Assembly: GCA_037042915.1 (NCBI GenBank)
Contig: CM073203.1
Span: forward strand, 1,798,001 to 1,862,000
DNA from: Auricularia sp. M13
Lineage: Eukaryota > Basidiomycota > Agaricomycetes > Auriculariales > Auriculariaceae
Reading direction: 5' to 3'
DNA: 64,000 nucleotides
Every line of letters begins with the position of its first letter. Within the stretch, counting starts at the first letter, position 1. Made by a program: the position numbers and the translations under genes. The notes beneath the pieces are model-generated. The model was not told where the DNA came from. It ran no database searches and worked only from the letters and a program-made list of their open reading frames with translations. Shown here piece by piece: positions 15,577 through 64,000 of the stretch.

Positions 15577-16539
15577 CTAATCATATTGGCTCCGGAGAGT
15601 CTCCACCAGGGCCTTGAACGCGATGAAATATCGGAGAGCGTCTGCACGGTATTTGGGCACTTCCATCCCATCGTACGCCCGCGAAGGCACGACGCACTTG
15701 GCGACATGCGTCACGGCCTCGAGCGGCATCCCGATGCGCACCGCCCGACTGAGCGCGGCCGTGACGGGTATTTTGTAGAACGTCGGGCACGAGCGAACCA
15801 TGACGATGCCGGGGAACACCATCTCCGTCATCACCGGCTTGCCCCTGCTCGGGCGTTTCTTGTTGTTGGCGTCGAAGGCGGCAATCGCTGCGGTGACGAG
15901 CTGCTCCTCCGCATCGTCCAAATAGGGCATCTGGCGGTTGGTTTGTACGAGCAGGAGGATCATGCCGTTCTCGGTCCCGAACAGGCTGATGTCGGGAGAC
16001 GCGACCTGAGGGTCGAGGCCAATAAGAAAAGGTAGGGGGTAGCGGGTGAAAAGGAGTCCGGTCCGCGTCTGGAAGCCCAAGGCGCGCAGGAGCTCTCTGG
16101 CGAAATCCGCGACGACGAACTCGGGGTCTCCGCTGATCATAGGAAATGCGGCGAACCGCAGGTACTTGAGCAAGTAATACGTCGTATCCGAAATCTCGAC
16201 GTCGGTGAGCGGAGACTCAATAGGGACGGTGGTTGCGGGCGCGGTATTGCCTCCATCATCTCCGCGGGCGTCCTCGGTAGCAACATACAGGGGCACGGTG
16301 CTGGGATTGTCCGTGACTGGGGTAACGGCGGCGACAGGACGCGGGGCGGTAATTGTCGCGCGCATGGTGGAGGTGAGCGAGCCAGTGACATCAAATTCGA
16401 GAAAGACAGGGTCGATATGGGCAAGCGAGATGTCCGTAACGCTCAAGCCAAAGAATTGCACGGCGGGTTGAGCAAAAATTTCAACCTTGTAAGTAAACAA
16501 ATTGATAGCGGGTCTCGAGGCGGAGTCGGCGGAAGACAT
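15577..16539 (-). CDS. Agaricomycete PD-(D/E)XK-like family protein (copy A)
   Basis: A single exon of 320 residues if the start is the ATG at 16539 (MSSADSASRP); the frame stays open further upstream, but that part is antisense to a decayed RFX-like fragment. The core reads DFARELLRALGFQTRTGLL, then PDISLFGTENGMILLLVQTN, then MVFPGIVMVRSCPTFYKIPV, and ends YFIAFKALVETLRSQYD. I recognise this as a multi-copy Agaricomycete family of unknown function whose typical members read ILLLVQEDK. The E-x-x-x-L, D and E-x-K pattern suggests a PD-(D/E)XK nuclease-like fold. Here the E-x-K position is T-N-R, so a nuclease activity would be lost. The fold call is inference. Confidence 0.6.
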   Translation of the reverse strand: MSSADSASRPAINLFTYKVEIFAQPAVQFFGLSVTDISLAHIDPVFLEFDVTGSLTSTMRATITAPRPVAAVTPVTDNPSTVPLYVATEDARGDDGGNTAPATTVPIESPLTDVEISDTTYYLLKYLRFAAFPMISGDPEFVVADFARELLRALGFQTRTGLLFTRYPLPFLIGLDPQVASPDISLFGTENGMILLLVQTNRQMPYLDDAEEQLVTAAIAAFDANNKKRPSRGKPVMTEMVFPGIVMVRSCPTFYKIPVTAALSRAVRIGMPLEAVTHVAKCVVPSRAYDGMEVPKYRADALRYFIAFKALVETLRSQYD

Positions 16540-16656
16540 GGATGGCAGACGGCGGCGACTGGGAGCGTCAAGAGTGATTATGGTTTCGGACTCCGCGGTG
16601 CCGTCCGGACTTCGAACCTGGGCCGGGCCTCCGCATGATTGCCAGTAACTGTAAGG

Positions 16657-16880
16657 TCCTCTGGCAGTCTGGCTGGCGTACCGGTCGCAGTGTGACAAAG
16701 GACGGACAGAAGGCGGCGCGGCGTTCGACCTCGTGGTCTCCTTGAATGTGTGTTGAAGGAGTTGTTCCCCAGAACGAAGATGTCGAAGGTTGGTCGAAGG
16801 CCGGGCCTGGCCGGCGGCGACAGAAAGGAGCACTGGAGCAGTACAGAGTCTCTGGGCTTGCGCGTGCGCCCGATTTTTTG
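16657..16880 (+). pseudogene. Decayed RFX-like winged-helix fragment
   Basis: The sequence closely follows the last exon of family member 3 (14577-14780): VWLAYRSQCDKGR corresponds to LWLAYRSQCDGGR, and segments matching KELFPGSKMSK and the Tyr/Gly-Leu-Ala end are still visible. The reading frame is broken near 16752 and again after an inserted stretch near 16795. Only the last about 70 codons are represented, with no coiled-coil part upstream. It lies between copies A and B of the PD-(D/E)XK-like family, antisense to both. Confidence 0.7.
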
Positions 16881-17019
16881 CCTCATAGCTGTTTGGGATC
16901 CTTTCACGGCTCCTGACAGTCCAGGCTCAGTGGATGCGGACGCGTAAGACGACGTTGCTGATGTATTATTTACATGCATTTCATGATCACACAATGAGAA
17001 GCAAACTTGACAAGCCGAA

Positions 17020-17994
17020 CTAATCGTATTGGCTCCAGAGAGACTCCGCCCAGGCCTTGAACGCGATGAGATGTCGGAGAGCGTCTGCACGGTACTTGCA
17101 CACTTCCATGCCTTCCTCCATCCACGAAGGCACGACGCAATTGACGACGTGTGTCGCAGCCTCGGGCGGCATCCCGGTCATCACGGCGCGACTGAGCGCA
17201 GCAGTGACGGGAATTTTATAGAACGTCGGGCACGAGCGAACCATGACGATCCCGGGGAACACCAATCTCCGTAAGCGCCGGCTTGTTCCTGTCGTAGAGT
17301 TTTTCGTTGTTAGCGGCGAAGGCGGCAATCGCTGAGGTCACGAGCCGATTCTCCACGTCGCACTGGGAGGCCATGAGGCGGTCTGTCTGCACGAGCATGA
17401 GGATCATGCCGTTGTCGGTCCCGAACAGGCTGATGTCGGGACGCGCGACCTGTACTTCTCTGCCGACAAGAAAAGCCATGGGGTAGCGAGTGAGAAGAAG
17501 GCCGGTCCGCGTCTGGAAGCCCAAGGCGCGCAGGAGCTCTCTGGCGAAATCGATGACGGCAAACTCGGGATCTCCGCGTAGGTTAGGAAACGAGGCGAAC
17601 CGCAGGTATTTGAGCAAGTAATATGTCGGATCTGAGATCTCTAAGTCGGTGGGCAGGGACTCCATACGGACGGTGGTCGCGCGCGTGGTCTTGCCTCCAT
17701 CTCCGCGGGAGTCCTCGGTAGCAACGGGCAGTGGGCCGGCGCTGGGACTGTCAGCGATTGGGGTAACAGCGGCGACCGAAAGAGGGGGGGTGACCCTCAC
17801 GCGCGTGGTGGAGATTAACGAGTCGGTGCCAGGTGGCATCAAATGCGAGAAAGACAGGGTCGAGATGGTCAAGCGAGATGTCCGCAACGCTCGTCTCGGA
17901 GCCAAAGAACTGCGCGGCGTGTTGTACGTCAATTTTGACCTTGTAAGTAACCCGGTTGAGGACTGGTCTCGAGGAGATGTCTGTGGCGGACATG
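17020..17994 (-). pseudogene. PD-(D/E)XK-like family, broken copy B
   Basis: Copy B aligns with copy A from MSATDISSRP (17994) to the same ending SQYD (17020), and homology continues upstream of the start codon. Two frame breaks interrupt it. One is near 17840, after FLAFDAT, where the downstream part continues in another frame. The other is near 17270, where an extra T in the sequence for T-E-M/V-F-P-G shifts the frame. The core DFARELLRALGFQTRTGLLL and PDISLFGTDNGMILMLVQTD remains readable. The E-x-K position reads T-D-R, as in copy A's T-N-R, so the motif was probably lost before the duplication. Confidence 0.75.
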
Positions 17995-18360
17995 AATGGA
18001 AGACGGTGGCGAGTGGGCAAGCGTCAAGAATGGTTATGGTTTTAGGACTCCGCGGCCCCTCCGCACGATTGAGGCAAACTCTTTAGTGCATGTCTCATCT
18101 CCTTCCCTATAACAGAAGAAATTCGTCGCAGAGAACTTCTGGAACATAATAGAACACGTTTTCGAGCTTGCCGCCTTCCTGATGGGAGGAAACCCACCAG
18201 TGAGACCGAGCGGCCGCGAGAGTGTTCCCGCGCTCTCAGAAGATGCCAGCCGTGATGTAACTCTGTACGTGAGAGCGGAATTAGCTGCGTCACGACGTTC
18301 CCCACATGAATTCTAGTTAGCTAGTGATAAATATCGAGACCTATAGACTCGTAACCTAAG
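17995..18360. other. Intergenic, no supported gene
   Basis: The first about 60 bases still resemble the 5' flank of copy A. Beyond that nothing recognisable. Confidence 0.4.
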
Positions 18361-18960: not shown

Positions 18961-19758
18961 ACTTGAATATCCCGATATGAGATCTCAATCAGGATGAGGA
19001 TGCATGCAAGCTCGCGAGAAACATTCCTTAGATCGTGGGGTCACAGCGACTCATGGACATCCGGGCCGCCTGCCCTGAATGCCGCCAAGACTAGGGTGGA
19101 CGTTTTTGAACCGCTCGACGGACACGGCAGCTCGTCGACGGCTTTCGCATCCGACGAGGTAAGGGGCTTGGAGGACGTCGACCGCTCAACACCATTCCCA
19201 ACTTTCATCTCACCCTCACATCGCGCTCTCATCATCTGCTAAGCACCAAGCAGCCAATCCTGATTCGACGACGCGCATGCGACCTCACCGCACCAGCGCC
19301 TCATAGGCGACGGTGAACGGGAGCGGCATGGCCGCCCTCGGTTGACAAGCACAGGCCGCACGACTTCAAGTCCACCGACTGCACTTCTTCACACCTTCGG
19401 TAGCATCATACTCCAAACCACGCGCCGTGTATCCAGCATCCATTTCAACGACGTCAAAAGTCAGGGCAGCAGTACATACTACCAACCAACCGTACCAATC
19501 CAGCCGAGCCGGATAAATAGTCAAAAAGACAGTAAAGGTAAGAGCGCAAGTCAGAGGCAGAGTGTCCCGGATCCGATCAAAAAGGGAAGAGAGCGAAAGG
19601 AATGGAAGGCGGGGGTGCGAGGGGGCGATGGCAATAACTCAGAGGAAACACTATGCGCGAGAGGTCCGTAGCGGCAGGGTCTATGAGGGGGTCTAGCTAG
19701 CAGGGCAACAGCGGAGGGGAGGGTGATCGACAACATGCAGAGGCGTAGGCGTAGGCGT
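18961..19758. other. Downstream flank of the GT2 gene, no supported gene
   Basis: Short overlapping frames only. The 19551-20132 minus frame partly reads the last intron of the GT2 gene and is not a separate gene. Confidence 0.4.
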
Positions 19759-22700
19759 TTAGTACGAGAACAGCAGCAACCACGGGTTGAGCACAATCTA
19801 CACCATGCCCCCGCATCAGCACCGCAGCGAAAAACGAAAGAGGCAGGACGCACCGGATACAGAATATGGCACCCGACCTGCACCGCGAGCGGGAAGATGG
19901 CGGCCCACGCGGAGCCGTCGATGCGCCACGCGATGGGCACGAGCTTGGTCGAGAGCAGGATGATGCCCGCCACCATCGTCCAGCAGATCACGTACGTCGC
20001 CCAGAAGCGCTTCAGGATGCGCGGCACCTCCATGAAGAAGTTGGAGATCTCGACCTCCTTGATCGTCGCGCCCCACTGGATGTTGTACTTGAAGAGATGC
20101 GCGAGGATCGAGCCTGAGAGATGGAGCGACATCCCGCCGAAGAAGAAGAAGCTGCGAAGGAGTGAGCGTCAGCGAGCGGTCCGAGCGCGAGGAGCGACGA
20201 GCGAGCGACGGGTACGAGGAAAACGAAGTGGAGTGGGAGGTGAAGCGGGAAAGAAAGAAAAAGTACGCACAAGAACGGCAGCCACTTGATGTTCAACCAC
20301 AGCGCCTCCAACAAACTCGAAATACCCAACCGATACTCCAAAATCGTCATGCCCAAGTTACCCGCACCCAAGAACACAACGCTGCACGCGATCCAGATTT
20401 CCCACGAGTGGAGGTAGTACCCATCAATGGGCAGCGCCCACCCCAGCACGAGATAGTTGATGGTCGAGAGCGTCAGCGCGCCCGCGATGCCGTAGTACGA
20501 GAACATATACGCCAGCACCGAGAGCTTATAATGGATCGGGACCGGGCTCCACACGAACTGGTGCATGCGCTTCGTGATCGGGCCGCGGTAGAACCACTGG
20601 TAGAGCGGGTTGAACAGCAGCTCGTTGCATCCATAGGAATACTTCATCCAGCGGTTCAGCTCGTCGTCGCACGTGAGCGAGACGCCCTCCTTGAAGCCGC
20701 CCTTGGAGTACGTCGCCCAGCGGATGGTGTAGCCCTTGAGCTGCAGCCGCAGCGCCATGTCGAAGTCCTCCGACACGTGCTCCTCGGACCAGAACTTGCG
20801 CTGCCCGTCCGCCGGGTCGACGAACGCCGCGTCCTGCATCGCCGTCCAGCGCAGGAACGCGTTGTGGCCGACGAACGGCGCGACCTCGCCGTTCGCGCAC
20901 GCGACCGAGATCGCGTGGTTGATGCGCCGCGTGAAGTACGCGATGCCGTTCTACAAAACACAGCAGCGCGTTAGCAAAGAAAAGATAAGGATGAAAGCGA
21001 GCGCGGCTCACCTCGAAATAATGATGCGCAACCTGCATGACGTCCGACACATGCTGGATGATGGCGACCTCGGGGCACTCGTGCAGCTCGCGCGCCGCAT
21101 CGCGCAGGCAGTCCTCGGGCACCATCGTGTCCGAGTCGACGATGAGCACGACCTCGCCCATGCGCAGCGCCTTGCCGCCCGCCGCCCACGCCTGCCCGTT
21201 CGTCTCGGCGACCGCCATGCCCAGCGCGCGCTCCTCCAGGCCCATCTGCGTCGGGATGCCAATGCCCGGCATGCCGAGCGCGCCGCCGGGGCCCATGTAC
21301 TCGCCCTTCTCGTCGTAGTCGCCCACGGCATTGACGGCCTGGTACCCGCTCTGGCTACGACTGTGCATCCCGCCCCCGCCGCCCGGTGTATTCGGCGTGT
21401 GCGGCGTCGCATTGGGATCCGCCTGCAGCTGCAGCAGGATCTCCTCCATGCGCAGGCTCATCTTGAGCGCGTAGTTCATGTTGCTCGCCTTCTTGAACCG
21501 GCCCGCGCGCTTGAACCCGCCGGGCTCGTTCGAGTGCTTCGGGCGCGCGACCCAGCCGATGTCGTGCGCCGCGTAGAACGCGACGCGCGCGTCGCGCTCC
21601 GCGGGCGGCAGGAGCTGCATCCCGTCGTCGCACACGAAGATCGCGCTCGTCCCGCCCTGGCGCGCGTACGTCAGCATCGCCTTCTGCAGCGACGCGACCG
21701 ACGGCGCGATCGTCGCCTCCAGGCTCTCCTTGTACACCGGCATCTGGATCGTCACGTGCGGCAGCACGCCCTCGTCCACGGTCTCCTTGAGCCCTCCGTG
21801 GATGCTCGACGCGCCGTCGTTGTACGGCAGCGCGCCGACCGACGGCGGAATCGGCGGCGGCGGCACGGCCGAGTAGAATTTGCTGTTCTGGTGGTACTGC
21901 GCTACGGGCCCGACGACGAACGTGACGCTGTTGACGAGCGACATGCAGAAGAAGAGCGACACGCAGAAGATGAGCGGCACGGTGAGCAGCAGGATGAAGC
22001 GCATGTAGTCGCCGTCGAGCGCAAACTCCTCGACGATGATCTTCACACCGTTCCCGACGAAGAAGATCGCGAGGCCGCTCGCGATGCCGTTGTAGACCGG
22101 CGCGAACAGCCGCGTCGGCCGCGGCGACGGCTTCGGCAGGCCCGTCTCGACGTCGCGGTCGTCCGCCGAGGACGACAGCTTCTCCTTCTCGGGCTCCGGC
22201 GGCGCCTCGTCCAGCACGCTCTGCGGGATGCCGTGCACGTGGCCGAGCCGCGACTGGTGGCCCATGCCGAGCGACGCCGTGCTCTGGTTCATGCTGGCGA
22301 AATGGCCGCTCGGCGAGTTGAGCGGGTTGCCCGACGTCGACGACGCCGTCGGGCGCATCTTCCAGACGAGCTTGATCAGTTTGGCTTCGAACGCCTGGGC
22401 GTCCTCGATGATGTCGTCGATCCGGTCGCTCCATATTACCATTACGCGCTCATCGCGCTGGAGTGGCGGACGCAGTGGTAAGGGAAAATGGGACGGAAAA
22501 GAGCGGAATAAAAATGAAAGCAAGAAAGGAAAGGAGAGCGCAATGGAAGTCGCAGAACGATGAGGAATGTAGATCGCGCGACGAGGCGAGTGGAAGAATT
22601 GGAAGACAGAACAAAGCGGGCGCGAGCGACGTGCACGAAGGAAAGCGGCAATGTCAAGTGCAGTGTATGGTTCGTGTAAAGGCGAGGTCGTCGAAAATGC

Positions 22701-24552
22701 AATAAACAAACCGGGGAAGCGTGCAAGGTTGAGGGCGACGGGTCGAGTAGATGCGAAGGTGTCAAGCGGCGCGTCGAATGGTCGCGAGCGGATCAAATGC
22801 AGAAGACATCGAGGAGACGCCGTCAGGGCAAGCAGCCAAAGGGAAGAGCAGGCAGTAGTGCAAGGGACAGCGCGGAATTGTCGAAAGAATGGATCAGCGG
22901 AGTAGTAAGCGAGGCGGCGAGCCAAGGGGAACAGAGTAAAGCGAGGCCGGGCGAAGGCGTAGCGTAGCATAGGTTCGAGGCAAAGCGGTCGATGAAAGAA
23001 ATAGGAACGTGAGGTAATAGGAAGGAACGAGATTATGCGACGGGTTAGGGAAGGCGAGCAGTGTAAATGCGCCGGCGGTGTCGTTGGCACAAGATACAAA
23101 TGGGCGTAGAAAAAAAAAGGAACAAAAGAACGAAAATGGCGATACGGAAATTGTAAATGGAACAGCGTCGCGTGGGCGCAGAGCATCATACGGCGCGCGG
23201 TGGTGCATGAGGGGGGAATGCAGGAAATTTTCGGGAAGGCCGCATCAAAGGTAAGGAAAGACGAATGAACGTCGCATATAGACAAAGGAGGACGGAAATG
23301 AGTGCAGAATGCATGCACGATGGAGACAGGGTGTGTGCATGAGCGGTGATGCCGAGGTCGCGATAGGATCATAGTCGACGATCATCGCGTGCCAAGATCC
23401 AGGATTTTTCAGCCACACAGGGGGGAGGGCGGTGTCGGAGGCAGGCAGCACGCAGACGGGACGAGGCGCCGGTAACGAAGGCGACGGACGGAGGCGGAGC
23501 ATCCGAAAGGGGACAAGCGTCGATAACGGAGAGGACAAGCGGGAGGAAAACGTCAGCATACACTCTGGGCGTAGGAGGGAGAGAGAACGCACGATGAAGG
23601 CTGCGCCCTGGCCCTTCTCAGCGGTGGCGAGCTCGTTGATGTTTTCGAGGATCTGGATGCGCGTGCGCGGGTCGACGTCGATGTGTTGTGCTTGCGGGCC
23701 GCTGGACACGGCGTGTATCAGCATCAGTGTTCGGTATCATAATACGAGGGCGCAGCGAGGGGCGGGTGCGAGGTGCGAGGTGCGGGGCCGGCTGCTATTA
23801 GTGTTACGCCGCCGGAGGATGCGCAGCACCCACAACGCGCGGTCCCGCGCCGCAGATACGCCCGCTCCCGCCGCGGCCTTTCAGGCTTTCACGATTGGCG
23901 CAGAGTGCGAGCGCAAGTGTACGAGCCAGACTCGACACTCTGCCTCGGCGGCTGTAGCGTAGCGATGACGCAAATTCCGCCGCAGCCAGACTGCGGCGCC
24001 GCCGCCGCTGCTGCGATCGGGGCCCGGGTTGCGATGGTGCATTGCGCACATCGCGACGGGGCGTGCAGGCCATGACGGCAAGCGGCCGGCCGCAGCGGTG
24101 CTCCTGACTGGCCCAGCCAGGCGCCGTAACGTGGCGCCCGACCCAGCGCGAATCGCATAGCTGGCACGCGGGCCCGCCATCGACACGCTGCACCCCTCGC
24201 CCTCCCAAAAAACCAGCAAAAGCAAAAGAAAAAGAAAAAGGAAAGCAGGACTCACACATTCGCCAGGGCAGCATGTACACTTGCGCTGCGGAGCTTGACG
24301 GCGACCTCGGGGTTGAGGACCTTCACGGCGGCCTCGAACGGCTCGAGGTAGCGGTTTTCGTACGGGAAGACGCGGAAGACGCCCGGCTCGACGCGGATGC
24401 AGACGCCCGACGCGATGTTGTCCTCCGCGCTCTTGAACCACGCGTCGCCTTGCGTCTAGGGGGGGAGTGAGCGTAAGGGTTGAGCGGGCCGGCCGGGTAC
24501 CCACCTGCTTGAAGATGTGGTGCAGAATGGCATCGTACGCGTCGTAATCCAT
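19759..24552 (-). CDS. Fungal family 2 membrane glycosyltransferase (GT2)
   Basis: Seven exons: 24505-24552, 24256-24455, 23593-23701, 21012-22457, 20271-20950, 19854-20151 and 19759-19797. They encode 939 residues and all phases agree. It starts MDYDAYDAILHHIFKQ and ends NPWLLLFSY. Two N-terminal membrane segments (around GLAIFFVGNGVKIIVEE and FILLLTVPLIFCVSLFF) precede the catalytic domain. GT2 motifs are visible: IQMPVYKESLEATIAPS, the CDDG, the metal-binding LIVDSDTMVPEDC, the base region HVSEDFDMALRL, and DDELNRW in the QxxRW position. Several C-terminal membrane spans follow. This resembles fungal GT2 enzymes that make a cell-surface polysaccharide; the product is not deducible. The third intron is 1,135 nt and free of AG over 1,103 nt. 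Confidence 0.85.
22458..23592 (-). other. 1,135-nt intron with a complete AG-exclusion zone
   Basis: The donor GTGCGT (from 23592) follows ...AEKGQGAAFI, and the acceptor CCAG (ending 22458) precedes RDERVMVIWSD; both are phase 0. On the minus strand no AG occurs from 23562 down to 22460 (1,103 nt), checked base by base as absence of CT on the plus strand. The only AGs in the intron before that tract are a CAGAG about 26 nt after the donor, too close to serve as an acceptor. A branch-point-like GCTGACG lies near 23551-23557. TC and AC are common on the plus strand here, so base composition alone does not explain the gap. Confidence 0.85.
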
Positions 24553-24777
24553 CGTCGACGGCGGCGACGGAGGCGGAAAGGGAAGGGAAGGGAGGAAGGA
24601 GGAAGAGGGCAGGTTACGGCTGTGATGACCACGCGGCAACGACACTGCACGCCGTTTGATATCAGCCAATCAGCGAGGAGCGCTACGTCACCTCCTTTTT
24701 CGCTTTTCCCGCTTTGCTGTTTGCGGGTAGCGCGTCGTGCTAATTGCTTATTAGCGCATAATAGTATACAGTACTTA

Positions 24778-25069
24778 TTTGAGGTGACGCTGCTGTTCGA
24801 GGACGGGGAGATCTTCTGCGCCGGCGTCTATTATTACGGACTCGGAGTCGCTTGCGACGACGAATCCTGCACTGTGCAAGGCGGGGCCGGCGATCTACCA
24901 GGTGTGCAGAGATTGAGAGCGAATCCCGACCTCCATCTATTACATTCTCAGTGTCCACAGCTTCAGAGACAGGCTCAGATTCAGACGTGATTCCAAGAGC
25001 CTCCACGTCCGGCTCCCTCGAAGCCTGAATCGGGAGCTCCGAGTCCTGTACTTGATAGCCTTTAACCAT
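24778..25069 (-). CDS. Uncertain acidic coding segment
   Basis: An ATG at 25069 opens a frame reading MVKGYQVQDSELPIQ and then an acidic, Ser/Glu-rich segment (ITSESEPVSEAVDTENV). A second frame on the same strand near 24790-24860 (VASDSESVIIDAGAEDL) ends at a TAA with similar composition. The two could be exons of one disordered protein, but the gap between them is only about 27 nt, too short for a normal intron. No family recognised. Confidence 0.25.
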
Positions 25070-26493
25070 CTGGCATCCGCATTCTGAGAATCAGCCGACG
25101 CATGCTGACACTGACAGTGAGACTCCGGAGACTGGGGGCAGGCAGACAGGCGGGTGGCAGCTAAGTTAGACGCTTAGCCACGTTGCATATTCTGGCAGGA
25201 CCCGGAATGAGAGTGTCGCCGTTAGCTGACAGTGACAGGCGGAACGGCTGAGAATGCATGCATTCCGGTATACGAGACTGTCCGTTGTGCGGGAATGCCG
25301 AGACTCGGAGCAGATCCAGAGCTCCTCAGGCTGTACCGTACGTTTCGAACGAAAGAGCAGATGTAGTGTGGACCCAGGCCACGGCGCGCGAGATGTCCGG
25401 CACCGGCGCGCAACTTTGAGAAGCTCAAGTCCGCACTGCGCAGTCGGTATCGCGTGCAAGAAGCTGCGGCGTGCGAACAGAGTGGGAAAAGGCTGAGATT
25501 GATGCTATGCGGTTCGAAGAGGCTGAGGGAGAGGAGAGGAGGAGGGGAAAGAGGTGTCGAGCTTGTTGGAGCTCGATGTATATGTTTAACTTTATGCCGC
25601 GGAGCCGGAGTCACATTGACAGTGTAATTGGCAACCTTGTCTTCCATCCTCCTCCTCCCCTCTCCCCTCCTCCTCCCCACGCCCATGCTCTCTACTCGCA
25701 TCCGCATCCACCACACTCATATGAGTCATCTTGAAATAGCCCACCGTCGGGATTCGGCACTCGGCAGCTGACAGATCTATGTAAGTAGATGAGGACGGGA
25801 TTCGCGACTGAGACTCAGATGCGCCGGTCGATGTTTCAACTGTAATTGTAACGATTGCAAACCTATCTCAGCGCAAACGCTCGGAGCGGCCGTCGTGCTC
25901 GTGCAAGGCGCACACAATCATTGAATCATTCGGACTACTGCAGCTGACGTGGAAGTTGGCTCAGGCTCAGACTCTTGATCTCCCATGGCCAGCTAGAACC
26001 GACGGCGACGGAGCCGGCAATGGGCATTACGCAGACGTCTGCTGGCACCGTTTCAAACGTCAGGATGGAGAGGGTCAATCGCCGGCTTGGCTCAGGGTAT
26101 CTCAGGCTGCACCTCCGAGTCTCCGTCCTGGGATTCAGAATCTTAGACTCTCCGTCTGTGGTCGTCCGCCTTGCATCAACAAGCATTGCAGCTTGGTGAA
26201 GAGCGGAGCCGCGGCGGTTCTCTCGGTACTTGTTCTTGTGGGCGCTGGCATATCCGAAGCAGAGCGGCTGCTAGGTGTTGATCGCTGCTTGGCTTGAGTT
26301 GAAGAGTTCTCGCCGAGGCTGCGTTTGGCATACAGTATAACAGAGGTGGGATTAGAATCGTAGCCGTCGTGTTTTCCGCTGTGGCAAAGCTCTCCTGACA
26401 GGCGCCGGGCGGCATGCTGCACCCACTAGCGGTCGATCCCCTCGCTATCACACACAGGAGAGAGAAATCCTCGGCGATATTAGCTCCTAGCTG
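25070..26493. other. Unassigned stretch with scattered coding-looking pieces
   Basis: Minus-strand frames at 25935-26186 and 26176-26601 have mixed composition but no domain or clear splice chain. A purine-rich tract (25518-25556) and a pyrimidine-rich tract (25645-25681) form an imperfect inverted pair of low complexity. Confidence 0.35.
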
Positions 26494-27663: not shown

Positions 27664-30600
27664 ATGAGCGGCGACCGCCCCCGCCCGCCGCGCCAGCGGC
27701 AGCCGCAGCAGGCCGAGTTCTTCCTGGACGAGTACAACTACAACCAGGCGCTGGGCAACGACTTCCAGGACCGCGACTCGCCGCCGGGCTCCTCCTCCGG
27801 CGGCCACTCCAGCGCCGACCTCTACCGCGCCCAGCAGCAGCCGCGCGGCAAAGCGCTCCCGCCGCCGCCTCCCCCGGGCGGCGGCGGCCACGCGTACACC
27901 CAGAGCCAGGGCCAGGGTCGGAGCACGGCGCTGGCGGCCGGGCCGTTCGCCGACGACATGGCGGCGAGCCCGCGCAGCAGCTTCAGCGAGGACACGCAGC
28001 ACCTGCACCTGCGGCACGCGCCGTACGCCAGCCAGCCGCGCATCGAGGGGCTGCCGTCCCAGGCCGCCTACGCCCAGCCGCAGCCGCAGCCGGGCTACGC
28101 AGCGAGCGAGCGCGAGTCGTTCTTCGCGCCGCCCGCGATGCCCTGGATGCGCAACGAGGGCTCCGCGCCGCCCTCGCGCTCGGAGAGCCCCAGCTTCTTC
28201 GGCGCGGCCAGGACGAGCTCCGCGAGCCCCATGCCGTACTACCCCCAGAGCGTCTCCCACTTCTCCCACACCTCCACCTACGCTCCCGGCAAGCCGCGCA
28301 GGCAGTTTGTCAGCCATCTCTTGACCGGCCCCGTCGACAAGCCCTGGCTCGTCAAGAAGGACCGCTGGATCCAGGCCGCCTGGTGGATCACCGTCGTGCT
28401 CTGGTTCGCGGGCGCTGCTGGCGCCGCGGTGCTCTGCTTCTTTGCGTATCAGGACGTCCCGTCTTTGGGTAATAATCTGTGAGTCTTTTATTATTATTAA
28501 TCTTCGCTCGCCCGCATCACCTGGATGGGCAGTAGCCAAAGGGCGTGAAGACAGTATGGGCGCGCTGTCTTGACGGGACGGCGGCCCCGCCCGCGCTCCG
28601 CCGCTGCCGCGCGCTCATCATGCCCCCCGCGTCGGTCCCATGTGGCTGCGCGCCATCCACGCGCGACCCTCGTGCCCATCGCCCCGCCTCCCGCCCTCGC
28701 GCGAGCTCGTCGGCCGCTGCCGCGCGCTCACCCGTCTGCGCCATGCCCGCCCTCTCACTGTGTCGATGTGCCCGTTCTGCGGTCGCGACGTGCGTGCTGC
28801 GGCGGTAATAATGCGTGCGCGCGCCAAGGTCCTCACGGGACAGCACGGTGTCGCGCAGCTGCGACGAGAGGCCGCAGCGGGTGATGTCGTCCCTTTGCCG
28901 CCGTTCGCGACGTTGCGCATGCATTGCTTCCGCCCGCCGTCTTCGTGCACAACGGAATGCCACGATTGGCCCGCCCTGGCGCTATGACAGTACCGTGCTA
29001 TGAACTCATGCTGACTCGTTCCGTCTTCGCAGGTGCAAAATCATGGACGACAACTTTGCGGACCTGTCGCACTGGAACCACGAGGTGGGCGTGTCGGGCT
29101 TCGGCAACGGCGGGTTCGAGTGGACGACGGACAGCAACACGAACTCGTTCGTCTCGGGCGGGAAGCTGTACATCGTCCCGACGCTGACCACCGAGGGCGG
29201 CAAGTACTCGGCGGACGACATCCTCAACGGCGTCCAGGACACGATCCCCGGCTGCACGAACGAGGAGGACTTTGACTCGAACAGCTACTTCCAGAATAAG
29301 GTCGTCGGCAGCGCTGTGGGATTCCAGAAGCGCGAGCTGTCGCTTTGGGAGAGGATTGTGAAGAGGGGGCCGGGCGATGATGATGAGGAGACCGGTACTG
29401 ATACCGGTACCGATACTGGCAACACCAACACCGGCAACACCAACACCGGCAACACCAATGGCAACACCAACACGGGCAACACCAACGGCAACACCAACAC
29501 CGGCAACACCAATGGCAACACCAACACCAACGGTAACACCAGCACCAAAGACGGTGGTGGCGCCAACGGCGTCACTGGCGGCGGTGATCCGAACGGTGGC
29601 GGCGGTGGCTCGACTGGTACGTCTCCCTTCTCTTCTGTTCCGTTCGTCGCGCGCGCTCATGAAACGCAGGCCGTACGGGCCAGCACGACCCGTGCCAGGT
29701 CACCTCGGACCGCTCTGCGCGCGAGGCGGTCAACCCCGTCCAGTCTGCGCGGCTGACGACGAAGGGCAAGGCGGCCATCAAGTACGGGCGCGTCGAGATT
29801 CGCGCCAAGATGCCGACCGGGTGCGTTCTGTCCCGTTCGTCTCCCGACGCGGCGCGCGATGCTGACTCCGCGCCTGCCGCAGCGACTGGCTGTACCCGCA
29901 GATCGTGATGCTGCCCGCGAAGACCGTGTACGGCAACTGGCCGCTGAGCGGCGAGATCGACATCGTCCTCGGCCGCGGGAACGACGCGAACTATCCCGGC
30001 GGACGCGATTTCATTACGAGCGGTTTGCAGTGGGGCCCGGCTGTTGGATTCAACGCGTTCGACCGCACGCGTGGATGGTACCAGCAGCGCCGCACGAACT
30101 TTAACCAGGCATTCCATACGTTCACGCTCGAGTGGACCGACAAATTTATGTGAGTAGCGTTGTCTTTTAGCGCCGCTGCTCGTGACCTTCGCTGACGCTC
30201 GCGCGCGCGCGCAGGTGGATCTTCGTCGACAGCCGCGTTCACCGGGTGATCAATCTGGACTTCAAGAAGCAGTCCTTCTTCAAGCGCGGCAAGTTCCCGC
30301 TCGTCTTCCGGAACGGGACGGACGACGCGGTGCTGCAGAACCCGTGGCGGGACCACAACAACGCTGCGCCGTTCGACCAGGAGTTCTACCTCGTGCTCAC
30401 CGTCCAGGCCGGCGGGACGAACGGCTGGTTCGAGGACAGCAAGGGCAAGAAGCCGTGGTTCGACCGCTCGGCGAGCGCCATGTTCGACTTTGCGAACGCG
30501 ACGAATACGTGGCATAAGACGTGGCCGAAGCAGCCCAAGGACCGCGCGATGGTTATGTGCGTCGTTAGCGCGAGAGACGAGCGGCGACTTTTTTTGCTGA

Positions 30601-30666: not shown

Positions 30667-32080
30667 ACGCTTTCCGTTGTTATTGGACGATTTCTCTTTC
30701 TCTGTTTTTGCTGTGGCCTCCCCGTATCTCGCTACCCATCCATCTCCCATCTCCCATCTCCCATCTCCCATCTCCCTCCTCGTCGCTATAGCATAAACGC
30801 AACGCTCGCACGGACACGCTACTGGATACGGATTCTTTCTTTCAACGCTCTTACGGTCTGCGCTTTTACTTACTGGCTACTTATTATTACTCTGCCCGCG
30901 CCGGATATGTGATTTGCACTACATATGTCCTTCGCGCGCGCGTACGCTCGCTCACTGATAGAATGTCGCTCGCTGTTTGCGGTCTGATAGCTGATCTGTT
31001 CAATTGTGCGACACCGTGGGAGTCTGACGTCGATGAGGATGGGGATTAGGATGCAGATGACGTCGAGTGCAGAATCGTGCACCATGGCGCGCCGCCCGCG
31101 TTCCTTGAGGATCAAAACTGGCAGAAACCACAATCAGTGCACGTCTCCCTGGCAGGGCCGTTCCTCGGCTTCAGAGTTTCAGATGACGTCCGCGTTGTGT
31201 CATTGCAGATTTCAGATGTTGGCCCAGTGCCCGGCTTTCACACCGGTGACGTGAAAGCCTGCATGAGAGATGATGCATTTCATTTATGCTGCTCACGACC
31301 CGACGGTCGGTACCTATACTCTGCCTCAGCCATTAAAAAGGTATAAATCCTCGCTGCCAGTGCTTTCATCTCAGTCTCAGAACTTGCCACAGCCTGAGTG
31401 AATCGCCCTCATCATCTGCTACATGCCCTCTCAAGCACGGATGGTATAACCCATTACATGCTGACTCTCAGATGTGGTCCGTGCCGCCTCGCTCTCAAGT
31501 TTTGCCCACGTTATGTCGGGCATTGGACCTGACGATTAACTGGGATCCACTTACAGTCAAAGCCTCCGTCATATATCAAACGCCCCCCCGGCTCGCTCAG
31601 CCTGTCAAGCGTTGGCCCCTGGGCTGCAGCCGCTACTGCGTGGCAGTGTGCAGTGTTTCTTCGTGTTCTGTCAAAGGATGCGATTGTGATACCCTGCCGT
31701 TCTTGGTGTTAGGTGGGAAACCGGGAGTTCCGAACGTCGCGGCATATAGATGCGCGACGGATGAGACGCCTGCTCCCGCGTACCGGCGCCCGGACATTGA
31801 GGCAGAGCCATCCGCGCGCCGAGGGAGAGGTCATTGCATCGCGCGTCACTGTCCTCAACTTGCTCACTGATTTTCAGAGGTAAATGTATGCATAGAGCAC
31901 TATACGTCCGATTGAACTTTGGAGCTTTTGCCACAACCTCAGCTGTAAGTATCTGCAACTCTGAGTCTCTGAGACGCGAGGTGGCTCAAGGATGGTAATT
32001 TAGCAGTCAATATAGTAGTACAGACCCTGATGCATGTCTTTTCCACGCTCACTGTCGAGTTATTGGGGTTGCGAGCGAGG
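30667..32080. other. Intergenic, with a short heptamer repeat
   Basis: Five perfect CATCTCC units occupy 30741-30775, just downstream of the GH16 stop. The rest (to 32080) has only short overlapping frames with no recognised product. Confidence 0.5.
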
Positions 32081-33118
32081 ATGAGCAGCAACAAACGTGA
32101 GAAGCAGAGTATTGTGGCGGAGCCTAAAATAGTCATCGTGCTTGACCTCGCCGACTTACTCATGGCCGCCGCCGCCCGCCCCGCAAATTCTGGCCTGGAC
32201 TGGACAGAAGCAGGACTACATTACTATAAAATTTTAATCGACGTGGTCCCTGCCGCCGAGTTCTTCCTCCCCGGGACAGACACCGAAACTGTGGCACTGG
32301 GCCACCTTGACCCAGCATTTCTCATCTTTGACGCCACACGCCCCATCATCACAACTACGCGCCTGCACCGTGATATCGACACCTTCGGCGGGATCTCGCG
32401 TCTTGCTGTTGAGGACGTCAACGTCAGCGGAGCAAACTCGGTATTGGCGAACAACGCGGGCCCTGCGGCGCCATCCGCGGAAGTATACGAGTTCTCTGAG
32501 CAGACGTTCTACCTGCTCAGGCATCTCCGACGAGCGTCTTGGTCTAGCATAGCCCAGGAAGGAGCCATCGAAGACTTTTCCCGAGAGCTCCTACGCACGC
32601 TCGGCTTCCAGACCAAGCACGCTCTACTCTACACACGCTATACAATCCCTTTCCTTGTGAGCGGCCAATCGCTGACCGCGCAAGCCGACATCTCCTTGGT
32701 CGGCACGGACAACGGCTCGATTCTCCTTCTCCTACACAAGGAGATCCCGGTCTTGCACGAGTCCGCTGCACGAATAGATCCTGTGCCACAGCTCGTCGCC
32801 GCAGCTATCGCTGCATTTGTGGCCAACAACAAGGCGCGTACTGGGAAGGGCAAGGCTGCGCTGAAGGAGATGGTCTTCCCGGCCATTGTCATGCACAACT
32901 CTCGCCCCAAGTTCTTCACGATCCCTGTTACGGCAGCGCTCAAGCGGGCGGTGGGCTGCGGAGCATCCCCCGATGAGGTAACGCATGTCTCGCAGTGCCA
33001 TATGCCTTCGCCGTATGAACTGGCTTGCGGAATGGAAACCCCGGCATTCCGTGTTAGAGCTCTTCGTTACTTCATCGCATTCAAAGCTTTGGCTGAGTCC
33101 CTCTGGAACAATTACTAG
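32081..33118 (+). CDS. Agaricomycete PD-(D/E)XK-like family protein (copy C, intact)
   Basis: A single-exon gene of 345 residues from MSSNKREKQS (an in-frame upstream ATG at 32030 would add 17). It shares the architecture of copies A and B: N-terminal LGHLDPAFLIFDATRP, the core DFSRELLRTLGFQTKHALL, ADISLVGTDNGSILLLLHKE, then MVFPAIVMHNSRPKFFTIPV and the end YFIAFKALAESLWNNY. It is diverged from A and B, so it is not a recent duplicate, and it is complete. At the position where typical members have E-D-K it has K-E-I, again lacking a clean E-x-K. Function unknown. Confidence 0.68.
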   Translation: MSSNKREKQSIVAEPKIVIVLDLADLLMAAAARPANSGLDWTEAGLHYYKILIDVVPAAEFFLPGTDTETVALGHLDPAFLIFDATRPIITTTRLHRDIDTFGGISRLAVEDVNVSGANSVLANNAGPAAPSAEVYEFSEQTFYLLRHLRRASWSSIAQEGAIEDFSRELLRTLGFQTKHALLYTRYTIPFLVSGQSLTAQADISLVGTDNGSILLLLHKEIPVLHESAARIDPVPQLVAAAIAAFVANNKARTGKGKAALKEMVFPAIVMHNSRPKFFTIPVTAALKRAVGCGASPDEVTHVSQCHMPSPYELACGMETPAFRVRALRYFIAFKALAESLWNNY

Positions 33119-55184: not shown

Positions 55185-57402
55185 TTAGGCAACCGGGGTG
55201 AGCACCAGGGGAAGCTGGACTGTGTCGTCTTTGCGAGTCTGCGGGCGCATAAGGGGACCAGTGCGTGCCCACAGCTCAGCCTTGTCGACGGCGAAGCGGA
55301 ACTCGAAGCCGCGGACGATGTGGAACAACAGCGACTTCATCTCGGCGACGGCGAAGCGATGGCCAACGCACGAGCGCGGGCCGCCAATGAAGCTCATCAG
55401 GTTGGGCGATATTCCTGGGATAGTCGACGCCTCGTGCGGAACAGTCTCCCAGCGTTCAGGCCTGCCGTCCGTCAGCATCCGTGCAGCCAGCAGTGGAGGA
55501 GACGGGACTCACTTGAACTCGTCGGCGTCGGGTCCCCAGATCAACTTGTTGCGGTTGATCAGCCAAATCGGAACCTGCACCAGGTCGCCTGCCTGGACCC
55601 TGTAGTAAGACGTTCTCCTTCAGCGACCTCCCCGCGCGCCGTGACCGAATACGAACCGAATCTGGGACACCATGTTGCCGTCGAGGTCCTTTGTGGGTTT
55701 GCTGAGCGGGATGATATCGTCTTGGACGGCCTCGCGCGTGATGAAAGTCACCACGGTATGGGTGCGCAGCGTCTCGCGTACGACCTTGTCGAGATACGGC
55801 AGAGCGTTCAGCGTCTCCAGCGTCGGCATGTCGGTCCCGACTTGCATCAACTCGGCGCGCAGCTTTTGCTGAACTTCCGGATAGGCCGATAGCGCATACA
55901 GTGCCCAAGTAGTTGAGTTGCTACAAAAGCTGTCAATCATATCCCGTCGTGCGTACTAACCGCTAACCTCGTAGTTTCGTGTCCCGCGAGCAGGAATGTC
56001 GGGATCTGCGCGAGGACCTCATCGTCTGACAGTCTGAGCGCGGGATCGAGATCCTGGGCCAGGTTTGCCTGGAGCAGCAACGAGATGAGGTCCTTGCCGC
56101 CGATGGATGTCTTCTCGATGCGCTTGACCCCCGCGAGCTCGCTGAGGACGGCCTGCTTCTTCTCTTGCACGATGCGCATGCCGATCTCATCCATCTTCTT
56201 CCTGCTATTGTCGAAATCCTTTATGCGCTGGTCCGGCTGTCGGAAATTGACGGTTGTCAGCGCAGTGTCGAGTGCGCACTACCTTCAATTCACTTACGAA
56301 GAGCGTGCGAAGGATCGGGAACTGGTTGTACATCAGACCGCGTATTTGGATGCCAGGTTTGACGTCGACGCGGAAGACCTTGTCGAAGGCCTCGGCGAGC
56401 TCGTTCTTGGTGCCCTGCTCGTTGAGGGTGTTGAACTCGTAGTCGAAACCTATTGCAGAATATAAATTCTGTGCACTCATCCCAACGCTCGAGACTCTCG
56501 CACCTGCTTTCCCAATGGCGTCAAGCGTAGCCCTGCTTAGCCAGTCTAGAGCGTTGAGTTCCACGCTGCCCCCGGCCTCCATGCATTTGTTGTGCCAGAT
56601 ATCACGCATCTACGAGGGCAAGCTGAATATCGACATCACTTCCTGAACTGCGCACATACTTTCGCAGATATCTCGAGGAATGTCTTGGTCATCTCACGAA
56701 CATGGGCGTGGCCAAATCCAGGGTTCATTATCCTACGCTAAATAATTGTTAGTCTCGCAAGCAGTTGCAGGAAAACTACTGAGCACCTGGTCCCTGTGCT
56801 GCTCGCCTGGCGAATATATTGAGCGTATGTATAAACGGCGGGCGCTTTAACGGGCTCACCCTCGGTATACAGAACACCTGAGATCGCTGAGCGTATCGCT
56901 CGAAACGCCCTGGGGTTGCTCACCTTCACCGACCAGTTTCAACAATGCGCGGCGTTGCGTCTCAGGCTTGTGGAAGACTTGCGTAGCAAACAGCACGTGG
57001 GTCATAGCGCGCGTGTCGGTCGTAATGAGCTGGTATTTCTGCAGGGCGCACATGAACGTCAGTCTGATCTCTAGAAATCTGTCGGGACAGGCGCACCCCC
57101 ATGAAGGCCCGGATAGCGAACACTTCGCCATAGGTGTCCACCCAATTTTGCTGGATCTGCATGCTCTCGCCTTCGAACAGCTGGCGGATGTTGCCAGACA
57201 GCCAGTTGGAGCCAGCGCGCGGTCCGGGGAGCTTTCGCAGAGGTGAGCGGCTGTTGCGCCAGTAGGTGTAGACATTGCTGAGCAGCTGGTATTCGACGTA
57301 GGAGCCGGTAACGACAAGGCCGGCTTGTACCCAGGGTACGGAGTTCCAAGGGTAGTTGGCCAGCGTCGTGAGCGGTTCGCGGCTCCAATCGATGACGGTC
57401 AT
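55185..57402 (-). CDS. Cytochrome P450 (paralogue 2)
   Basis: Same exon layout as paralogue 1 on the opposite strand, from the ATG at 57402 (MTVIDWSREPLTTLANYPWN) to the stop at 55185. Landmarks: membrane anchor near GLVVTGSYVEYQLL, the hinge [42 protein letters not shown] assembled from short exons, LLAGHETT followed by NSTTWALYALSAY, ETLR and [13 protein letters not shown]. The splice sites I could check (around 56940-56750 and 55970-55920) are conserved. All key residues are present, so it is probably functional. It is closer to paralogue 3 than to paralogue 1 in the last exon ([16 protein letters not shown]). Confidence 0.88.
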
Positions 57403-62155: not shown

Positions 62156-64000
62156 TTAGGAGACCGGGGTCAGCACGACAGGCAGCTGGACCTTATCGTC
62201 CTTGCGAGTCTGCGGGCGCATCAGCTGGCCCGTGCGCGCCCAGAGCTCGGCCTCGTCGACAGCGAAGCGGAACTCGAACCCGCGGACGATGTGGAACAAC
62301 AGCGACTTCATCTCGGCGACGGCGAAACGATGGCCGACGCAGGCGCGCGGGCCGCCAATGAAGCTCATCAAGTTCGGCGTAATTCCTGGTATGGTCGATG
62401 CGTCGTGCGGAACATTGTCCCAGCGCTCAGGTCTGTTGTGCATCAGCACGCGTCATACGGCCGGCAGCCAAGAGGGCGGGGCTCACTTGAACTCGTCGGC
62501 GTCGGGTCCCCAGATATCCTTGCTGCGATTGATGAGCCAGATAGGAACCTGTACCTGATCGCCGGTCTGGATGCTGTGAAAAACTCTGGTTCAGCAACAT
62601 GCTCGCCAGCCATGGCTGAATACGAACCGTATCTGGGACACCATGTTGCCGTCCAGGTCCCTGACGGGCTTGCTGAGAGGGATGATATCGTCTTGGGCAG
62701 CCTCGCGCGTGAGGAAAGTCACGACGGTATGCACGCGCAGCGTCTCGCGAACGACCTTGTCGAGGTAGGGAAGAGCGTTCAGCGTCTCCAGAATCGGCAT
62801 GTCCGTTCCAACTTGCATCAACTCGGCACGTAGCTTCTTCTGTATCTCCGGATACGCCGCGAGCACGTACATGGCCCATGCCTTGAACGATCTCATACCT
62901 ATATCTGCATAAGAACGGCGTACCTCGTCGTTTCGTGTCCTGCGAGCAGGAATGTCGGAATCTGAGCGAGGACCTCCTCGTCTGAAAGTCTGAACGCGGG
63001 GTCAAGGTCCTGAGCCAGGTTCGCCTGGATAAGTAGCGAGATGAGGTCCTTGCCGCCGATGGACGTCTTCTCGATGCGCTTGACCCCCGCGAGATCGCTG
63101 AGAATGGCCTGCTTCTTCTCTTGTACGATGCGCATGCCGATCTCGTCCATCTTCTTCTTGCTATCGTCGAAATCCTTTATGCGCTGGTCCGGCTGTCGGA
63201 AATTGACGGTTGTCAGTGCAGTGTTGAGCGCGAAACTACCCGTCAAGTCACTCACGAAAAGCGCGCGAAGGATTGGGAACTGGTTATAAAGAAAGCCGCG
63301 TACTTGGGTGCCAGGCTTGACGTCGACGCGGAAGACCTTGTCGAAGGCCTCGGCGAGCTCGTTCTTGGTGCCCTGCTCGTTGAGGGTGTTGAACTCGTAG
63401 TCGAAACCTATTGCAGAATATAATTCCAGCGCACTCATCCCAACGCTCCGAGACTCTCGCACCTGCTTTCCCAATGGCGTCAAGAGTAGCCCTGCTTAGC
63501 CAGTCTAGAGCGTTGAGTTCCACGCTGCCCCCGGCGTCCATGCATTTGTTGTACCAGAGCTCACGCATCTAGTAAGGCCAGCTAAGTTTCCGCATACCTT
63601 ATGAACTACTCATACCTTTGCAGATATCTCGAGGAACGTCTTCGTCATCTCGCGAACATGGGCGTGGCCGAAGCCGGGGTTCATGATCCTGCGCTGAATT
63701 CAAGTGTCAGTCTGGAGAGCATCGGCAGGACAAAGTCTATAAGCACCTGATCCCTGTGCTGCTCGCCTGGCCGAAGAGTTCAGCGTCCGTCGCGACGGGA
63801 TGCACCTCACCAAGCTTACCCTCGGTATACAGTACTCCTGCCGGTCGATCAGCGCACTGCTCGCAACGCAGCCGCGGACGCTCACCTTCGCCAACGATCT
63901 TCAAAAATCCGCGCCGCTGCGCCTCGGTCTTGTGCCAGACGTTCGTCGCAAAAAGCACGTGGGTGATAGCACGCGTGTCGGTCGTGACGAGCTGGTATTT
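62156..64000 (-). CDS. Cytochrome P450 (paralogue 3), 5' end outside the window
   Basis: The gene runs from the stop at 62156 to the window edge; the first exon (membrane anchor and proline hinge) lies beyond 64000. Visible landmarks: the start of KYQL at the edge, THVLFATNVWHKTEAQRRGF, VLYTEG and [15 protein letters not shown] from micro-exons, [26 protein letters not shown] and FIGGPRACVGHRF. At the AGHETT exon end the next exon begins RSFKAWAMYVLAAY instead of [12 protein letters not shown], because the intron 3' end and several codons differ (62886-62929). The intron there would be only about 32 nt. The gene may be impaired even though its frame stays open. Confidence 0.8.

Follow-up and report, generated by a model that had tools for sequence, protein, structure and literature searches.

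The locus described here raises the question of what keeps the sense strand of one fungal intron free of AG dinucleotides over more than a kilobase. It lies in a GT2 gene of Auricularia sp. M13 (assembly GCA_037042915.1, contig CM073203.1), within a stretch of 64,000 nucleotides (nt; contig positions 1,798,001 to 1,862,000) that is referred to as the window and whose first letter is position 1. An earlier note, written from the sequence alone, had reported the AG-free tract in the third intron of this gene (intron C) and had proposed a branch point far upstream of the acceptor as its cause. Intron C is a spliceosomal GT-AG intron, and its AG exclusion zone fits the interval from a branch-point motif to the acceptor. 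Judged from the sequence, the zone is very probably explained by selection against AG through splicing from some site near position 23553, and the distant motif GCTGACG, with its A at 23553, is probably used as a main branch point.

Extent and location of the AG-free zone

The zone spans 1,103 nt of the minus strand (23562-22460) with no AG at all, which corresponds to the absence of CT from the plus strand at 22460-23562, exactly as first reported. The next-longest AG-free run on either strand of the whole window measured 190 nt. By mononucleotide composition 23.6 AGs were expected in the zone, and the lowest count was 8 among 20,000 shuffles of its sequence and 11 among 5,000 shuffles within 50-nt blocks. 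The comparator consisted of 31 segments of 150 nt with 64-80% pyrimidine from both strands, with starts in 22300-23750 excluded. AG occurred in these segments at 0.90 of its expectation and was missing from one of the 31. Applied to the zone, this rate predicts 21.3 AGs and a Poisson probability of 5.5e-10 for finding none, or about 6.5e-8 after multiplication by the 116 places in the window. The earlier argument that dozens of AGs would be expected and that composition cannot explain their absence was borne out by these values (21-24 expected, P about 5e-10 against pyrimidine-rich segments).

All four contexts of AG were absent from the zone, with 9.4 CAG, 5.8 GAG, 5.7 TAG, and 2.2 AAG expected, and 327 of the 3,309 possible single changes in the zone create an AG. 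CT, TC, AC, and GA occurred 123, 126, 64, and 34 times, respectively. Since GA was present (34 vs 23.6 expected), avoidance of neighboring purines was not general. GG was low as well, with 13 occurrences against 32 expected by mononucleotide composition and about 27 after renormalization to the comparator (P 0.002). The only dinucleotides that are one transition away from AG are GG and AA.

The claim that the zone belongs to an intron of the GT2 gene could be fixed to the exact residue with the DUF7928 profile (length 160). In the joined protein, residues 4-119 matched profile positions 1-117 and residues 120-160 matched positions 118-158. With exons 1-3 alone the match ran to the last residue (profile position 117), and with the start of exon 4 alone it began at the first residue (position 118). 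Because positions 117 and 118 meet at the junction of intron C, the zone lies inside the intron and extends to the true acceptor. Its 3' end adjoins the acceptor AG, and its 5' end lies 9 nt before the A of GCTGACG. The position of this motif (23551-23557), the CCAG acceptor, and the start of the zone about 30 nt into the intron were all as previously described. Two AGs occur just upstream of the zone, where they would be harmless, in the ~30 nt that are all of intron C on that side.

Within the same gene, the first 464 nt of intron B had a normal AG content, with 21 AGs against 20.9 expected. The description of intron C as ten times longer than usual was appropriate relative to introns A, D, E, and F (49-119 nt), but not relative to intron B (554 nt). 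An automatic intron finder, run on the window with a limit of 700 nt, returned 16 candidates and recovered introns B and D. It assigned a wrong donor to intron E, missed introns A and F, and had intron C above its limit, and at least two of its candidates lay antisense to GT2 exons; it was therefore considered unreliable and not used as a comparator. Relatives of the GT2 protein were sought in viral and genome contig collections, using six short peptide patterns that can detect only close relatives, and none were found, so that there was no orthologous intron for comparison.

An origin of the zone unrelated to splicing, by chance, composition, coding constraint, strand-specific mutation, or an inserted element, is extremely unlikely. 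Chance and composition are opposed by the probability of about 5e-10, and a bias in mutation should not stop at the acceptor. Such an origin is favored by the depletion of GG and by an open frame of 308 codons (23381-22458, minus strand) that is in frame with exon 4 and has a chance of 0.0115 for one given frame under a first-order model. Stops are rare in the zone through the absence of TAG and the low content of A. Coding as an explanation was rejected by codon-position composition and by the codon score. G+C by codon position was flat in the zone (0.54, 0.54, and 0.53) compared with 0.63, 0.44, and 0.96 in the next exon. The codon score was -1.14 in the zone vs +0.54 in the next exon, the latter value being partly circular as this exon is part of the training gene. 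No Pfam match was found in the open frame at E up to 0.001. As for an inserted or repeated element, the zone contained no tandem repeat, its internal repeats were not significantly above 300 shuffles (456 6-mer pairs vs 417 +/- 27), and its best match elsewhere in the window reached only E 0.53. With E up to 1 as the threshold, no Rfam family was detected in 19500-25500. Recursive splicing or a nested intron (stwintron) ending in the zone was rejected, since GT-AG intermediates are excluded where there is no internal AG.

Branch-point candidates and the splicing of intron C

Matches to CTRAY occurred in intron C at 1,095, 587, 436, and 365 nt from the acceptor, and a CTTAC occurred at 21 nt. 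Among the seven CTRAY or CTTAC sites of the intron, GCTGACG had the highest number of downstream pyrimidines (21 of 25). Within the first 200 nt of the zone there was no other CTRAY or YTNAY, and beyond it the next YTNAY was located at 23340 and the next CTRAY at 23045. The 39 nt between the 5' splice site and its A are comparable to the spacing in introns D (40 nt) and F (37 nt), and the same heptamer recurs in intron E, 17 nt from the acceptor. In introns B, D, E, and F, the CTRAY motifs nearest to the acceptor were 16-22 nt away from it. Counted from the 5' end of the zone, the cumulative expectation was 1.6 AGs at 150 nt (probability of none 0.21), 4.2 at 200 nt (0.016), and 10.9 at 500 nt. 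AGs located before any later site acting as the sole driver would be neutral, yet they are absent, which places the driver within about the first 175 nt (interpolated). Since no other CTRAY or YTNAY lies that close to the zone start, GCTGACG is indicated as the likely driver of AG exclusion. The far-upstream branch point put forward in the earlier note is on these grounds the most probable reading. The proximal CCTTACC, a credible alternative, had gone unmentioned there.

Several observations weigh against a distant branch point. CCTTACC lies at an ordinary spacing of 21 nt to the acceptor, and 22 of the 25 nt upstream of it are pyrimidines. Its CTTAC core is shared with a candidate of intron A, and because intron A has no CTRAY, CTTAC may be functional as a branch point in this species. 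In intron E the branch A lies 101 nt into the intron, so that the spacing of 39 nt does not hold throughout. Apart from their acceptors, introns A, E, and F likewise lack AG; short AG-free introns carry few expected AGs, with 1.5 in the 131-nt run that holds intron E. As only about 30 nt of the intron precede the zone, the agreement of its start with the motif carries little weight alone. No predicted fold bridging the gap, of the type that shortens the branch-point-to-acceptor distance in Saccharomyces cerevisiae, went beyond 40 shuffles (energy z +0.2, path 51 vs 56 +/- 30). The fold of shuffled sequence likewise shortens the path to ~56 steps by a simple graph measure, so that 1,095 nt are not necessarily an absolute barrier. 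In the excerpts of the cited papers, to which all literature comparisons refer, tho5-i1 reporters of Schizosaccharomyces pombe splice poorly at branch-point-to-acceptor distances of at least 30 nt, which makes 1,095 nt extreme (PMC9508853). Intrusion of an AG appears tolerable in the sunfish OGDH zone, which contains a GAG, and a MIR insertion series yielded no cryptic acceptors (PMC7969005).

With two competing branch points, the main lariat would form at CCTTACC (A at 22479), and GCTGACG would be used rarely or mistakenly, yet enough to purge AGs. This explanation is possible but rather unlikely. It draws on the normal distance of CTTAC and the 22 of 25 pyrimidines before it, on intron A, which has CTTAC or CTCAC only, and on fission yeast lariats, for which distal branch points of consensus sequence, possibly artefacts, were reported in addition to proximal ones (PMC4079972). 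On the other side, CTTAC is without the CTRAY core seen in introns B, D, E, and F, and the loss of all ~21-24 AGs, including those in weak contexts, suggests a substantial use of the distant site. Whether GCTGACG is a main branch point or a minor competitor, the distant site would be active enough to make AGs harmful.

Alternatively, the AG-free tract could be a device that stalls splicing after step 1, delaying or blocking exon ligation so that a part of the transcripts would be released after this step, and thereby lowering or regulating GT2 expression, comparable to the 3' end formation of the telomerase RNA of S. pombe. We consider such a device very unlikely. In S. pombe TER1, a long branch-point-to-acceptor distance together with a strong branch site leads to release of the first-step product (PMC4299874), and intron C would have an extreme distance and has no AG for an early step 2. 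However, the exons beyond intron C complete DUF7928 and encode the GT2 domain, so that full splicing must occur. The region of GCTGACG matches TACTAAC, which is the complement of U2, at 5 of 7 positions and is probably not hyperstable, a comparison made with TACTAAC and not with the host's own U2.

With GCTGACG as a main branch point, the 5' part of intron C would be built as an ordinary short intron, with the 5' splice site, 39 nt, GCTGACG, and a pyrimidine tract, and with the acceptor 1,095 nt further on. The A at 23553 would form the lariat in at least a meaningful share of transcripts, any downstream AG, whatever its context (CAG, TAG, AAG, or GAG), would be taken as a false acceptor, and mutations creating an AG in the zone would be removed by selection. 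In the proposed kinetics, the 5' splice site and the distant branch point would be synthesized and paired within tens of nucleotides, step 1 could be committed while the true acceptor is still untranscribed, and step 2 would wait for the first AG to emerge, necessarily the correct one. A tentative proposal is that of the first AG in time, in which step 1 would occur co-transcriptionally, the lariat intermediate would be held for ~1.1 kb of transcription, and the first emerging AG would be taken. If this were true, the gene would have been cleared of every AG over 1.1 kb for that reason, and intron C would present a naturally stalled second-step spliceosome as well as a natural branch-point-to-acceptor interval beyond all those in the excerpts of the cited papers.

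Splicing would be expected to fail immediately after an insertion of normal AG content. The zone may therefore have grown in small AG-free steps, or its AGs may have been purged slowly while the proximal site did the splicing. The suggestion that intron C is an expanded short intron agrees with the spacing of 39 nt between 5' splice site and branch point, but no trace of a duplication or insertion is left.

How the second step searches for its AG, by scanning, diffusion, or the order of synthesis, and how far this search reaches is an open question that has mostly been addressed with constructed substrates. A natural interval as long as 1.1 kb, which is almost threefold the 400 nt cited for human introns, would show the AG search reaching so far, and the clearance of all four AG contexts would suggest that even GAG and AAG are competent as acceptors. 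Intron C also suggests how a normal short intron could lengthen without moving its branch point.

Features of the GT2 gene and of the window

The coordinates of the gene, its introns, and the candidate splicing signals of intron C are given in Table 1.

Table 1. Position of the GT2 gene, its introns, and the AG-free zone in the window.
Feature	Position	Strand	Description	Basis
GT2 gene	19759..24552	-	939 amino acids, 7 exons; DUF7928 at residues 5-159, Glyco_trans_2_3 at residues 556-773	Joined exons form an open frame; Pfam
Intron A	24456..24504	-	49 nt; CTRAY absent; CCTTACG 18 nt and GCTCACT 12 nt from acceptor	Gene model
Intron B	23702..24255	-	554 nt	Gene model; within-gene control
Intron C	22458..23592	-	1,135 nt, phase 0, GTGCGT...CCAG	Gene model; DUF7928 profile contiguous across junction
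5' splice site of intron C	23587..23592	-	GTGCGT	Gene model
GCTGACG	23551..23557	-	Candidate distant branch point; A at 23553, 39 nt into intron, 1,095 nt from acceptor	Motif search
AG-free zone	22460..23562	-	1,103 nt; AG exclusion zone of intron C	Direct AG/CT count
CCTTACC	22477..22483	-	Rival proximal branch point; A at 22479, 21 nt from acceptor	Motif search
Acceptor AG of intron C	22458..22459	-	First AG beyond the distant branch-point candidate	Gene model
Intron D	20951..21011	-	61 nt; GCTAACG 20 nt from acceptor, A 40 nt into intron	Gene model
Intron E	20152..20270	-	119 nt; GCTGACG 17 nt from acceptor, A 101 nt into intron; sole AG is the acceptor	Gene model
Intron F	19798..19853	-	56 nt; GCTGATG 18 nt from acceptor, A 37 nt into intron	Gene model

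The final 88 nt of intron B before its acceptor AG were AG-free (2.9 expected), beginning right after ACTAATAGCAG. This sequence has a branch-like A 96 nt from the acceptor. Intron B may thus also have a moderately distant branch point, although CTGAT occurs at 16 and 22 nt.

Elsewhere in the window, three open frames (15577-16926 and 17216-18082 on the minus strand, 31973-33118 on the plus strand) appeared by eye to represent one repeated protein family, sharing LLR.LGFQT and DISL.GT.NG.IL. Two frames of this family were tested (15580-16926 and 31973-33115), and neither of them matched Pfam at E up to 0.001. A tandem repeat with the unit GGCAACACCAACACC was found at 29418-29548 (plus strand) inside a long open frame. 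Two AG-free runs on the plus strand (56147-56258 and 63103-63214), 7 kb apart, were both 112 nt long with the same composition and final bases, which suggests a duplicated segment. A P450 match was located at 62902-63495 (minus strand).

Comparison with known systems

The zone of intron C is an extreme, new form of the already known AG exclusion zones of introns with distant branch points. Among the literature matches listed, no kilobase-scale AG exclusion zone was recognizable by title or start of abstract, and the excerpts of the cited papers mention no zone approaching this length.

In fungi, the same kind of exclusion was stated for budding yeast, with a depletion of AGs from the branch point to the acceptor for which that source shows no data (PMC11651659). 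The branch-point-to-acceptor spacing averages 36 nt in Saccharomyces cerevisiae (PMC9508853) compared with the 1,095 nt proposed for intron C. In fission yeast, distal branch points were reported that resemble the candidate of intron C in their consensus sequence and in a position varying with intron length. The authors left an artefact possible, and AG exclusion is unmentioned in the excerpt (PMC4079972). S. pombe also has BP-distant introns that depend on Sde2, Cactin, and Tls1 and whose acceptor is far from the branch point, as is proposed for intron C, but these distances are tens of nucleotides only, with about 40 of approximately 5,250 introns at 30 nt or more (PMC9508853). The intron of S. 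pombe TER1, in which an unusually long branch-point-to-acceptor distance slows step 2, resembles what is proposed for intron C. It differs in belonging to a non-coding RNA, in its strong branch site, and in a first-step product that is the function (PMC4299874).

In human introns with AG exclusion zones, AGs upstream of the zone occur at normal frequency (PMC1431707). Distant branch points reach up to about 400 nt in human, with a zone of 381 nt at PTB exon 11 (PMC1431707, PMC2991248), and several branch points are frequently used, some of them at canonical positions (PMC2991248). Alpha-tropomyosin exon 3, PTB exon 11, HTR4, MBNL1, and CLK1 have a branch point and pyrimidine tract followed by AG-free sequence to the acceptor (PMC1431707, PMC2991248), as has intron C with its candidate GCTGACG. 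The mapped mammalian cases precede alternatively spliced exons, whereas intron C has a zone of 1,103 nt and no alternative exon was identified.

The closest architectural match to intron C is intron 4a of vertebrate OGDH, described as dBP plus megaPPT (PMC7969005). In human, its branch points are located at a distance of 25-41 nt to the 5' splice site and are followed by a pyrimidine-rich AG exclusion zone, an arrangement like that of GCTGACG and the zone in intron C, and new AGs in such zones are chosen as acceptors if they lie more than about 8-12 nt past the branch point (PMC7969005). The OGDH zone of about 280 nt (in fish) is restrained in length and accompanies mutually exclusive exons, whereas that of intron C has about four times this length, and the gene model contains no duplicated exon (PMC7969005).

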